DNA of 43,275 nt from positions 1-43,275 of the forward strand of contig BRYA01000499.1 of NCBI GenBank assembly GCA_030267965.1, given 5' to 3'. Made by a program: the position numbers and the translations under genes. This DNA is from Triparma columacea (lineage: Eukaryota > Sar > Bolidophyceae > Parmales > Triparmaceae). The notes under the pieces were generated by a model that did no database searches, was not told the DNA's origin, and saw only the letters and a list, made by a program, of their open reading frames with translations. This document shows positions 28,420-33,498 of this stretch, piece after piece (the first letter of the stretch is position 1; each line of letters starts with the position of its first letter).

Positions 28420-29623
28420 ATGGCCCACGCCGCGAGAAATCCGGTTGAGTTTGATCGCAAGTTCAGAGCTGCCTCAGATCAAGTCTCTGACCTCACCTGC
28501 TACGTGTGCTGGACGAGCCTCAGGGGAGAGGCATGCGACTGCGGGGGTCTTATCTGCCACTTCTCTCCCGACACGTGCGGCTCCCACCTCAACGCTTTGC
28601 TGAAGGGGAGGAGGAGAGGGTGTGGGTTCGGGGACAGATGCAAGAAGGTCCACCTCACCGAGGAGGCTGTCATGAGCAAGGTCGAGCCCTTCCTTAAGAC
28701 AGCGGTTCCTAAACCTCAAGCTTCCACCGCTATGCTATCACGCGCCGGGATCCCGAACCCCAACCCCGAGGAGAAGAAAAAGTGCACTGTCCCCCCCCAA
28801 GTAGTACTCGAACGGATCAAGAAGCACGCGGACAAGAGCCCGTACCTGCAGCGTTTCCTGTCCTCCCCCTTCCTCTCCGACTTCCTCAACGACAATGACC
28901 TCCGCCTCCTCCTCGCCTCCTCCAAGAACCGGGCCAAGGAAATCTGCGAGGCCTTGGCAGCCTCAGACAGGGTCCTCGAAATTTTATCTCGCATCCCCCA
29001 AGCTCGGGGCCCCATCACGGTCTTCGACGTTTGCAGCGGGAAGGGTTTCCTCGCGGCTATCCTTTCATTCCTACTCCCCGACTGCAGCATAGTAATGCTC
29101 GACGCGGACGGTGCAATGAAGGTTCCTCATGTCAACAGCCGTCCGAATCTATCCTTCCTCCAGGTCGACATCTTCTCAACGGAGTGCGCAAGGCTAATCG
29201 AGAGGGAGGTGAGGACGGGGGAAGGGGGAGATTGTATTGACGGTTGCAAATCCAACATACTTACAAAACTCTTTATCCCCCCAGACTGGAGAGGGAGGTG
29301 CTTGCATTTTGGTCGGTGTCCACCTTTGCGGCAACCTCTCCCCTCGGCTGATTGACCTTGGGTCCTCGATACCCTGTAGCTTGGGGTACGTGCTCTGCCC
29401 CTGCTGCCTGAAGGGGAAGCTTGGGAGCGACTGCAACGACGCGGGGAAGAAGCTGGGCCATGGGGGGAATTACAAGGTGCTTGTTGATACGATGAAGGCA
29501 GAGGCGGAGAGGAGGGGGGAGGAGGGGGCCGACGTCAAGATAGAATTTGATGGGGAGATGATGAGTCCAAAGAATGGCTTCATCGTGAGTAGTAATGTAT
29601 GCTTAATGTGTAGTGAAGGTTGA
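28420..29623 (+). CDS. SAM-dependent methyltransferase with N-terminal Cys-rich zinc finger
   Basis: Exons 28420-29208 and 29285-29623, 375 residues. The N-terminal part is Cys/His-rich (CYVCWTSLRGEACDCGG; then GCGFGDRCKKVH, a CCCH-like cluster). The catalytic domain has a SAM-binding motif I (VFDVCSGKGFLAAILSF) ending in the acidic LDADG, and the blocks VGVHLCGNLSPRLIDL and GYVLCPCCLKGK. The HLCG and PCC blocks are shared with the Trm13/METTL25/GSTCD-like group, several of which act on RNA. The substrate is not known; an RNA target is inference from the zinc finger and the group. The 3' end lies in a fresh tandem duplication, so the natural C-terminus may be ...SPKNGFIVSS rather than the 10-residue longer tail read here. 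Confidence 0.75.
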
Positions 29624-29693
29624 TGATGATGAGTCTAAAGAATGGCTTCATCGTGAGTAGTTAATGTATGCTTAAAGTGTAGTGAAGGTTGAT
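29557..29693 (+). repeat. Tandem duplication of about 68 bp at methyltransferase 3' end
   Basis: Copy 1 at 29557-29624 and copy 2 at 29625-29693 abut exactly and differ by two substitutions and one inserted T. The inserted T gives copy 2 an in-frame TAA relative to the start of the unit (FIVSS stop), whereas copy 1 reads ten codons further. Confidence 0.92.
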
Positions 29694-29719: not shown

Positions 29720-31956
29720 TTACATACAGCTATAACCCTCAACGACCACGTCGGCGTCCTCCTCCCCGCCCCTCTCCCCAACGAGCATCGCGTTCGCCCT
29801 GTCAACATCGTCAACCCTCTCCTCGATCTCCTCCTTCGTATACCCCGGGATACAAGTGTTCCTGACCTTCAGGAGTTCCATGCACTTGTCAATGTCGGAC
29901 TTGACGAAAATCGTCTTGTCGAACAACCCCTTCAGGCCCCACTCCGGCAGGAGCAAGTACAGCCCCTCGACGATGACAACGTCGTGTTTCTCCCTTTCGT
30001 AGGTGTGCGCCCCCTCAATGGGGTCCCCCACGGCATGGTCCCAACCGGGGAGAACTACCGCAACTTCATCTCCCTCGACGACCCTCTTCAAGTCACCCAG
30101 AAGTTTCCCTTCGTCGAACGTCCCCGGGCTCCCCCTCCTGTAAACCTCCTCCTTCGTCTTGAGTTCCTTTAGTGGTTGGTGGTACCCGTCCATCGGTAGG
30201 TTCAGGACTTGCGCGTCTCTCCCGATCTCGGAGGCTAGCTCACGTGAGGCACTGCTCTTCCCGCTCCCCGGTCCCCCCGCTATACCCACGACATAAGGCC
30301 TACCCTTCTCCCTACCCTTTATCTCCTCCTTAACCGTCTTCGCGACCGCAACCACCCAAGAGGTGGGCTCCCGCTGCTTGGACTTCTTCTCCCACTCTAT
30401 GACCGTGGGTAGTGGGACGAGGTGAAACTTGGCGGTGGCCGCCCCGACCCCCTTGTCCTTTATGTCAACCTTAACGGAGATGTCAGGGTTGCACTCCTTC
30501 ATCGTTGCCTTAAAACTCCATTCTACCCCCGAGTGTTCGCTAGCGAAATTCCGGAGCACGGTAGCGTGGTCGAACCCCGCGGACGACGGGTCCCCCCCCG
30601 CGTTGCTGGGTATAACGAACTCAGCGTGCTCGAGACCCTCGGGGTAAGGGCTCCCTACCTTGGGGGCTGGTATCTCTACGGCTTGGACGAGGTTACCGTT
30701 GAAGGGGATGCCGGGGTTTATGGAGTAGGTGGAGATCATTCGACCACCTATCGGACCCTCGACGAGGAGGGTGAAGAGGTCAGGGGAGGAGTTAAGGGAG
30801 GAGGTTAGTGTGGCGTAACTTTCCTCTGTAGCTGTCCTCCAGCAGACGTGGTCACACTGGTAGTCGGAGGTTTCTATAGAGTGGTCGGTAGACAGGGAGG
30901 AGGTCAGTTCGGAGAGGAAGGAGGGAACGTTGGCAAGGAGGTCCGCGTGGAAGGAGGCCGCAAACTTCTGACGGGACTTCTTGAGCTTCTGACGCTCCTT
31001 CTTCTTGCGGTTCTTCTCGCTAGCCGAGGAGGAGGAGGAGGTAGACGGTGGGGCGGGGGGAGGCGAAGGGGGGGAAGGACTCTTAGTGTCTGAGGACGAG
31101 GAGGCGGCAGCGGCCTCTTGAGAGCGGCGGAGCCTTCTCCTCTCTCTTGAGGTGAGCGCAGGGACCTATGAAAGGTGTGTGAGCGTGGTTAGTGTGTGTG
31201 CTGTGCTTTTCTTTTGTTCGCAGCAAAAAGTTTCGACCTTCTTCTTACCTTCTCCGTTTCCGCCCCATTTATTTTCTCCTTCTCCACCTCATTTGTTTTC
31301 TCCTTCTCCTCACTCTCCTCCTCTTCCTCCTCCTCCTCCTCCTCCTCCTCACACCCCTGCTTGTCATTCGCTTCTCCATCTCCCCCCTCCTCTTTGACCC
31401 TAACTGGAGGCCACTTCCCTTGAAGGTCCCCCCTCTCCTCAATCATTTTGTCGATAACATCCCCAAAAATGTCCATTGCAAGCTTGTCTTTATTTTTCAA
31501 AGTGTCCAAACTCAACTTAGCAGCTTTGACCCTTTGCTGCTTCGTAGCTCTAACCCCTCCAGTAGTAATTTCCTCCGAATTAAAGAAGGATATTAGTCCC
31601 ATAATGATGGACTTAATTGACCACATTGGCGACCAAAGCTCGGGATGAAAGTCACTCATACTGAAGCAGATTTTGGCATTCACAGCAAACCTCCCCGTCT
31701 CTGTTCTCATTATTACGCTCGGAGGACTCAGGGGATAGTTCCTAGGGAATTGTAGTACGCCGTGGTACACTCCACCTTCATAATCAGTGGAGTGAAAGAC
31801 TGGTCCGTGGAGAAGGAAGTGGCAGTGTAACCGGTTTGAGTCAAGGGGACGTGCGTGGAATGAGAGGGATGATGGTGATTGTGATGGTGAGCGTGATTGT
31901 TCTTTGTTTATTGATGCATATTCTCGTGTTATTCTTCTTATAGCTGTAGATGACAT
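29720..31956 (-). CDS. Predicted fusion: UBE2J-type ubiquitin-conjugating enzyme, YecM domain, P-loop uridine-kinase-like domain
   Basis: Exon 1 31956-31249, intron 83 bp, exon 2 31165-29720, 717 residues. Residues 1-155 are an E2 of the UBE2J/Ubc6 type: DYEGGVYHGVLQFPRNYPL, RTETGRFAVNAKICFSMSDF with active Cys97, then HPELWSPMWS. A Glu/Lys linker (12 Glu in a row) follows. Exon 2 opens with a Ser/Pro/Lys linker and a YecM domain (about 300-495: SDYQCDHVCWRTATEESY, VEIPAPKVGSPYPEGLEHAE, AKFHLVPLPTVIEWE). It ends in a P-loop kinase domain of the uridine/pantothenate/phosphoribulokinase group (GGPGSGKSS at about 533, LNLPMDGYH, RRGSPGTFDE, LPGWDHAVGDP, VIVEGLYLLLPEWG). Exon 2 has no Met before the YecM core, and the linking intron is typical in size and phase 0, so a separate start is unlikely. 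The C-terminal membrane anchor usual for UBE2J is missing. Confidence 0.72.
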
Positions 31957-32124: not shown

Positions 32125-33498
32125 ATGGAATCTCAATCAGCGGCACAATCGTCACACAATTCATCAGAGACCACAAATGTGGCAGTATCTAGTTGGGACG
32201 ATTTGACAGACGGTCAGCAGTTGTGCATAGATTGGGCTCGTGTGCAAGACTGGGATCGCATCAAGGGGTATGCCAAGGAACATGGTCCTGAGGTTTTGTT
32301 AGGAGTTCATTCAGATAAGAATTCGGTAGCTTCAGTCCTCACAGAGGCCTCACATCACCAAAACGTTGAGGTGGTCAAGCTTACCTTAGAGGCCGGCTTC
32401 GACAACAAGGAAGCCATGAACCTGGCAGCAAATATATCAATGAGGAATAGTGACAATTCAACAATCTTGAGATTGCTCTTAGAACATGGACTTGACCCCA
32501 ATATGGACCTACGATTCGAAGGGGTGGAGAAAGACTTTTGCAACCTTTTGATTTCTGCTGCTTACGAGGGACACATTGATCAGGCCATAACACTTCTCGA
32601 TCATGGAGCAAATGTGAACAAGATAGTGGTTGCCTCTAATGGAGATGTTGCTTCACAACTTACTTTTACTATGAGTTATGGAGCACACGACTTATTCAGG
32701 CTGTATCTCACGCGCGGTGCTATCCCAACCACCAGCGACGTGTTTCATGCGTTTAATAATTGCCTCGGAGCGTGCAAAGGATTACACCCTAAACTTAGTA
32801 GAGATGTCGCAATAAAGATGTTCACAACATTTCTTCATCTCGGAAAGCCCGATTCCGACGTAGTACAAGACCAATTCAATTTGCACCCTCCTTCAAGACG
32901 AGATCCTACAATCGCCAACATCACAAAACATTACCTTCAAGGCCGTCCCTTCTGCTGCTTTGTTTGCGAGGCTCTAACTGCTAAGGAGCGTGACAAGCTG
33001 CTAATGTGTCCCTGCCGCACTGTCGCCTACTGCTCGAGGGAGTGCCAGCTCAAGCACTGGAAGGAGCACAAGGTGCTATGCACGGGACCGCTGAACGAAA
33101 GGGGGGAGAGTGAGGCAATGGTCAAGAAAAGATCCAAGACAGGGAAGGGAGCGGCGGCGGGAGGAGTGAATGTGGGAGCAGCGGATGTGGGAGTAGCGGA
33201 AGGAGCAGGTGCGACGGGGAAGAATGGCAAGAAGGGCAAGAAGGGCAAGAAGGGCAAGAAGGGCAAGTATTACCTTGACCCAGAGAGTCTTAGGTTCCGG
33301 GTTGGCGACAAGGTTCAGTGCAGGATAGGTTCCGACCCTGCAACGGGTTGGGTTAACGGTACTGTCATGCAGCTTTTCTACAGGGAGAACAACTGGCCAC
33401 CTGGGCAGGTGGCGCCATACAAAATTGCACTAGAGGATGGGACGGACATATACGCACCAGAGGACATCCCGGAGGTCATCAGAAAGCCGCCCAGTTGA
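32125..33498 (+). CDS. MYND zinc-finger protein with ankyrin-like repeats and C-terminal SH3-like domain
   Basis: Single exon, 457 residues, start in AAAAATGG. Residues about 60-240 form ankyrin-like helical pairs (LRLLLEHGLDPN, LISAAYEGHIDQAITLLDHG, ANVNK). The MYND finger at about 276-314 has the full ligand set: CFVC, CPC, YCSREC and HWKEHKVLC. After a Gly/Lys low-complexity linker with KKG repeats (about 360-385), the end (about 390-457: FRVGDKVQCRIG, WVNGTVMQLFY, YKIALEDGTDIYAPED) is a small beta domain of the kind often attached to ankyrin/MYND proteins in heterokont algae. MYND fingers bind proline-rich partners; the partner is unknown. No SET domain is present, so it is not a Smyd methyltransferase. 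Confidence 0.85.
   Translation: MESQSAAQSSHNSSETTNVAVSSWDDLTDGQQLCIDWARVQDWDRIKGYAKEHGPEVLLGVHSDKNSVASVLTEASHHQNVEVVKLTLEAGFDNKEAMNLAANISMRNSDNSTILRLLLEHGLDPNMDLRFEGVEKDFCNLLISAAYEGHIDQAITLLDHGANVNKIVVASNGDVASQLTFTMSYGAHDLFRLYLTRGAIPTTSDVFHAFNNCLGACKGLHPKLSRDVAIKMFTTFLHLGKPDSDVVQDQFNLHPPSRRDPTIANITKHYLQGRPFCCFVCEALTAKERDKLLMCPCRTVAYCSRECQLKHWKEHKVLCTGPLNERGESEAMVKKRSKTGKGAAAGGVNVGAADVGVAEGAGATGKNGKKGKKGKKGKKGKYYLDPESLRFRVGDKVQCRIGSDPATGWVNGTVMQLFYRENNWPPGQVAPYKIALEDGTDIYAPEDIPEVIRKPPS

Follow-up and report, generated by a model that had tools for sequence, protein, structure and literature searches.

Can a ubiquitin-conjugating enzyme (E2), a YecM domain and a small-molecule kinase be parts of one protein in Triparma columacea, and what might such a protein do? 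The question is raised by a stretch of 43,275 nucleotides of contig BRYA01000499.1 (assembly GCA_030267965.1), here called the window, in which the initial annotation had joined these domains across an 83-bp intron. Its coordinates, minus strand, intron length and phase 0 join were all found to be correct. Pfam and homologues identify one protein composed of a UBE2J-type E2 with its catalytic Cys intact, a YecM domain and a P-loop kinase of the PRK/URK/PanK group, as had been claimed, and this three-domain architecture is almost certainly that of a real single gene. The spliced product has 717 aa, comprising, from N- to C-terminus, the E2, a basic linker, YecM and a FrcK/PanK/uridine-kinase-like kinase; YecM and kinase lie in the same exon without interruption. 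The features are as follows.

31249..31956, minus strand: exon 1, UBE2J2/Ubc6-type E2 and the linker's acidic N-terminal portion; 708 nt, phase 0
31954-31956, minus strand: start ATG of the E2
31564-31929, minus strand: UQ_con domain; Pfam 5.8e-13, over the curated cut-off
31645..31668, minus strand: J2 active-site loop CFSMSDFH, with Cys97 (catalytic), Ser99, Asp102 and His104
31555..31575, minus strand: Thr-flap EEITTGG of the J2 family
31166..31248, minus strand: predicted intron, 83 bp, phase 0, GTAAG...CTAAC...TTTCATAG, holding the E2-frame stop that ends at 31189
29720..31165, minus strand: exon 2, linker, YecM and kinase in a single open frame of 481 codons plus stop
30977..31021, minus strand: conserved basic linker SEKNRKKKERQKLKK, directly N-terminal of YecM
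30389..30943, minus strand: YecM domain (PF06185); Pfam 6e-20, over the curated cut-off
29738..30340, minus strand: P-loop small-molecule kinase of the PRK09270/FrcK-PanK-UCK group; Pfam PRK 6.6e-07
30254-30277, minus strand: Walker A
30179-30190, minus strand: DGYH motif
29951-29971, minus strand: VEGLYLL motif

Directly past the stop codon of the gene, a unit of about 69 bp is present in two tandem copies with 97% identity (29557-29693). On the other side, a divergent neighbour on the plus strand (32125-33498), encoding an ankyrin-repeat and MYND-finger protein, lies 168 bp from the E2 start.

The initial annotation had proposed a search for other proteins with UQ_con, YecM and PRK, and one was found. 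Among 30 proteins recovered with exon 2 (7991 candidates scored), only P0004 carries all three domains. This is TrVE_jg6882 of Triparma verrucosa, a single predicted protein of 642 aa, from a species whose gene models were built with BRAKER2 and RNA-seq according to PMC10328945. The same search returned P0002, which is 98% identical to exon 2 across 339 residues starting at the internal ATG, and the relative P0003, with 59% identity. The architecture had been considered undescribed. No description was found in the literature searched (open-licence papers, titles and abstract starts), and public records list the three-domain protein as a hypothetical protein and a Chaetoceros E2-YecM as a "UBC core domain-containing protein"; the T. 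verrucosa protein, however, means that the architecture is not unique. Viral contigs gave 98 pattern matches and no relatives, and phage records gave one 32.9% match, confined to the kinase part.

The E2 part has a wider family. When it was searched against proteins of 0.55-1.75 times the full length, 28 proteins were found, 27 with YecM, and P0004 was the only match also bearing the kinase. A profile search gave 202 matches, from the best 120 of which P0059, P0060 and P0061 were added. By Pfam annotation, therefore, at least 30 database proteins combine UQ_con and YecM. Species names are attached to three of them, P0004, P0037 (MMETSP1447, taxid 420782, Chaetoceros dichaeta) and P0042 (C. debilis); transcript collections are the source of P0037, P0042 and P0050 (the last also from MMETSP). 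A Walker A motif is present in P0004 and in none of the other 29, which are 417-514 residues long, implying that E2-YecM does not need a fused kinase. The C-terminal part of P0039 is unlike the others and its E2 very similar to that of P0037; it may be real or chimeric.

Phylogenetic trees fit this picture. In the E2 tree (80 rows, a quick method without bootstrap; P0059 and P0061, which missed the pattern, left out), 29 E2-YecM rows, namely 28 of the 30 and T. columacea, form one clade with P0083 (SH-aLRT 100). P0083 is an E2-only protein, 75% identical to the T. verrucosa protein across 23% of the latter. The placement of the UBE2J paralogues of the same genome was not used, since their branches are long. 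The YecM tree (60 rows) groups T. columacea, P0003, P0004, P0009 and P0014 in a clade (95/91), which is adjoined by 45 other eukaryotic YecMs (90/82, not starred), the named members of which are diatoms; stand-alone and UBR-linked YecMs are scattered amid the E2-fused ones. The simplest reading of these sequences is that E2-YecM predates the split of Parmales and diatoms, with losses or duplications afterwards. As judged from the same comparisons, the conserved unit is E2-YecM, onto which the kinase was apparently fused in the Parmales lineage.

The E2 itself resembles a well-characterised enzyme type. A PDB search gave Ubc6 and UBE2J2 as the best matches, and Cys97, Ser99, Asp102 and His104 correspond to Cys87, Ser89, Asp92 and His94 of Ubc6. 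The T. columacea E2 has the UBC fold with the catalytic Cys, the GRF motif, the insertion with His and the Thr-flap. J2-type E2s place ubiquitin onto hydroxyls, and a 2024 EMBO J paper (PMC11649903) traces hydroxyl ubiquitination by Ubc6/UBE2J2 to these same elements (GRF, active-site insertion with His, Thr-flap), the His acting as general base. Residues were counted in an alignment of all 30 Pfam-defined E2-YecM proteins and the T. columacea protein (31 rows). All 31 rows have the catalytic Cys followed by Ser (+2), Asp (+5) and His (+7), and all have the Thr-Thr of the flap, two residues N-terminal of which stands E in 22 rows and D in 9. GRF is found in 30/31 rows (ARF in P0037), and an aromatic residue at +6 from the catalytic Cys likewise in 30/31.

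What is missing is the membrane tail. A tail was scored as hydrophobic when a 13-residue segment within the last 40 residues reached a hydropathy mean of 1.8 or more. By this criterion, no C-terminal hydrophobic tail was detected in the 30 E2-YecM proteins or the T. columacea protein, and 43 of 47 E2-only proteins were positive (P0089, P0097, P0110 and P0138 fell below the threshold). The top score among the 30 was 1.75, barely below the threshold of 1.8. An earlier hydropathy threshold, so strict that it missed anchors among the comparison proteins, had given 0/28 against 3/37. In the T. columacea protein, the hydropathy maximum over 19 residues is 1.27 and is located in the UBC domain. The genome (37.85 Mb in 789 contigs; the gene's contig is C442) also contains a separate UBE2J2-like match (L003), whose adjoining ORF, probably the next exon, has a hydrophobic tail, and another J-like gene that also encodes a tail (L004); a further gene (L005) is read as UBE2J1-like. 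By these sequence criteria the fused E2 is a J2-type enzyme without the ER tail anchor and is predicted to be soluble.

Between the E2 and YecM lies the basic linker. A K/R-rich stretch directly ahead of YecM is present in the T. columacea protein and in 30/30 relatives, and the structure model of P0004 has a helix (230-275) at the linker. The YecM assignment rests on a profile score above the cut-off and on the YecM fold. Of 11 YecM positions counted, ten are kept in 31/31 rows and the Asn of NPD in 30/31; in alignment, E. coli YecM carries all eleven residues. The T. columacea genome has a single YecM, and short stand-alone YecM proteins exist, such as P0077 of Cylindrotheca. No function for YecM and no biochemistry of eukaryotic YecM were found in the literature searched. 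Bacterial neighbourhoods were surveyed at 60 loci by ORF clustering; the YecM cluster occurred at 53/60 and every other cluster at no more than 7/60, so the YecM neighbourhood gives no functional clue. In E. coli K-12 (1955500-1962500), yecM is flanked by cutC and a divergent argS. One bacterial YecM ORF, of Bacteriovoracaceae (L074:3383-4402, plus strand), has an N-terminal extension, which we take to resemble a CYTH/adenylate-cyclase-IV domain.

The kinase belongs to the PRK/uridine kinase superfamily (PF00485), scoring 29.8 bits against a cut-off of 22, and in addition to Walker A and DGYH it shows an RRG region, GWDH and an RN-IPGYT region. Its scores lie under every listed NCBIfam cut-off (PRK09270.1-2, 103.1 of 227; udk, 47 of 220.3; panK, 51.2 of 235), so the substrate is not assignable. 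Among 30 rows picked by the DG[YF]H pattern, a choice that makes any count of DG[YF]H itself circular, Walker A and EGLYL are each found in 30, R..IPG in 29, RRG in 27 and GFDH in 26. The kinase tree (33 rows) has a branch (93/90, not starred) that sets the YecM-linked kinases, together with P0015, apart from the rest without resolving them as a clade. Some related kinases, P0024 and P0025, are joined to a DUF1749 alpha/beta-hydrolase-like domain. The idea of a separate kinase gene in diatoms was dropped; the separate kinases found bear no species name.

How might these parts work together? The E2 would transfer ubiquitin to hydroxyl groups in the manner of Ubc6/UBE2J2, with the basic helix taking the place of the ER tail anchor. 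A small ligand or partner bound by YecM may set where the E2 works, so that in this soluble E2 YecM would fill the role of the UBE2J2 membrane anchor. It is reasonably probable that YecM is a targeting or sensing module of this kind. The ligand read by YecM might in turn be made or used by the kinase, which would link metabolite phosphorylation with ubiquitin transfer; functional coupling of the kinase to the E2 is proposed only tentatively. Of all links in the chain the kinase is the least certain, being absent from 29 of the 30 database E2-YecM proteins, and the fusion suggests co-expression rather than coupling. For the whole chain, that is, a fused gene, a hydroxyl-type E2, YecM aiming or sensing, and a kinase supplying or using the ligand, the chances appear about even.

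A different reading, which is possible though not favoured, is that the kinase is an independent enzyme on a shared polypeptide, uncoupled from E2-YecM. The 29 kinase-free E2-YecM proteins agree with it, as do related kinases without YecM, including tandem duplicates (P0005-P0008, also P0010, P0011 and P0013), one MMETSP transcript (P0020) and the DUF1749 fusion P0024. The pairing of YecM with the kinase, however, has been kept in diverged sequences (T. columacea, P0003, P0004, P0009, P0012 and P0014), and no second kinase of the group was found in the T. columacea genome at E<=0.001, weaker matches occurring at three places (17.6-20.2 bits, E 0.005-0.03). The same evidence bears on the initial annotation, which had regarded parts encoded at separate loci in relatives as an argument against the fusion. 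For E2 and YecM, joined in 30 database proteins, this argument does not apply; on the kinase side, 29 of these proteins lack Walker A, and YecM-free kinases exist.

It is also conceivable, if rather unlikely, that YecM, the kinase or both are non-catalytic regulatory domains of the E2, acting as nucleotide or metabolite sensors or as dimerisation modules. Enzyme domains fused to signalling proteins often turn into non-catalytic regulatory ones. The T. columacea kinase, however, has kept Walker A, DGYH, EGLYLL and the IPG region, and eleven YecM residues are almost completely retained, which fits a preserved activity or binding.

Could two neighbouring genes have been falsely joined, the intron lying in a 3' UTR and YecM-kinase having its own transcript? 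Without splicing, the E2 frame adds 19 residues and ends at the stop at 31189, and the two exons are markedly unlike in GC3 (0.50 in exon 1, 0.74 in exon 2). The window holds 3 spans with GTAAG, CTAAC and YAG, and 20 Markov-simulated sequences hold 1.85 on average; with a frequency so near chance, the motifs alone are weak evidence for the join. An in-frame TAG, however, abuts exon 2 on its upstream side, and the earliest in-frame ATG (30739) lies within the YecM core, which bears out the earlier remark that the exon has no start codon ahead of this core. In 30 proteins, moreover, E2 and YecM follow each other in a single chain, three of these sequences deriving from transcript collections, and the T. 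verrucosa gene model contains the same fusion. A joining artefact is thus very improbable and nearly refuted, by homology and not by splice motifs. On the strength of these homologues, the T. verrucosa three-domain protein and the 30 E2-YecM proteins, the predicted fusion is beyond chance or an accident of prediction.

The plastid translocon of ochrophytes derives from ERAD and has an E2 of its own, and the possibility that the T. columacea protein is the E2 of this SELMA import machinery was rejected as scarcely credible: the E2-only protein P0083 and P0045 are extended N-terminally with a hydrophobic stretch, but 26 of 29 aligned rows begin at or within the UBC domain, and in T. columacea a TAA stands two codons 5' of the ATG and the UBC domain starts at the N-terminus of the protein, leaving no room for a bipartite plastid leader. 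The extensions of P0045, P0046 and P0055 may be choices of the gene caller. The hydrophobic stretches ahead of the E2 in P0045 and P0083 could represent either a leader or such an effect.

YecM may be connected to the ubiquitin pathway in a second way. In two Thalassiosira proteins, P0068 and P0079, a cysteine-rich N-terminal module is followed by an oxygenase-like region and then by YecM at the C-terminus. Scored as a whole sequence, P0068 is matched in its N-terminus by the UBR box of UBR4 (0.0032) and by FBXO11 (0.081); its best single stretches in two alignments gave 0.12 and 0.025. Pfam reports YecM alone in P0068, zf-UBR being absent, and the structure model (mean pLDDT 49.8) is confident in YecM only; the label "UBR-box-like" is therefore given to this sequence with moderate confidence. 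The label "oxygenase-like" comes from HxD...H...R motifs recognised by eye, and no oxygenase profile of Pfam matched P0068 or the ORF of the T. columacea genome described below.

In T. columacea, another contig (C466) encodes UBR-like and oxygenase-like parts, with YecM absent. A 201-codon ORF (L081:1557-2162, minus strand) contains the C-terminus of an inositol-monophosphatase-family domain (Pfam 3.2e-10; 3'(2'),5'-bisphosphate nucleotidase 1jp4, 6.5e-09) and a UBR-box-like part (phmmer: FBXO11 6.9e-05, plant BIG 5.2e-04, UBR4 0.0014), for which Pfam did not report zf-UBR. A presumed intron separates this ORF from the oxygenase-like exon, their joining being backed by the Thalassiosira proteins. 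The two fusion patterns lead to a speculative and quite improbable picture of an ochrophyte ubiquitin branch, in which a soluble J2 E2 with YecM would work with a UBR-box/2-oxoglutarate-oxygenase-like partner, and the fused kinase and the bisphosphate-nucleotidase-like domain of the UBR protein would produce and clear a phosphorylated metabolite. The oxygenase would create or expose a hydroxyl to which YecM brings the E2; the metabolite would be a signal or even the ubiquitin acceptor.

In the open-licence literature searched, no paper pairs "YecM" with "ubiquitin-conjugating" or "UBR box" with "YecM". The lasting fusion to a soluble J2-type E2 gives the bacterial YecM family a functional context, and it provides a well-delimited protein with which to ask if metabolites steer ubiquitin or accept it. 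That one gene combines the three parts, and that E2 and YecM are joined in diatoms as well, points to a possible, hitherto undescribed connection of ubiquitin tagging with metabolism. Chaetoceros is a culturable diatom genus, and the presence of E2-YecM in it makes these proposals testable.

Ubc6 and UBE2J2, the ERAD E2s of the J2 family, are anchored C-terminally, whereas the T. columacea E2 carries a linker, YecM and a kinase instead. E. coli YecM (PF06185, PDB 1k4n) is a single domain of 188 residues; in T. columacea it is fused to an E2. The closest kinases, FrcK-like/PRK09270 kinases, type I pantothenate kinase, uridine-cytidine kinase and yeast YFH7, have here a relative fused to YecM and an E2. 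BIRC6, UBE2O and UBE2Q are likewise E2s built into larger proteins, and none of this kind is known to have YecM or a small-molecule kinase. The nearest counterpart is TrVE_jg6882 of T. verrucosa, which has the three domains in identical order, an E2 that is 63% identical over 161 columns, and a shorter linker.
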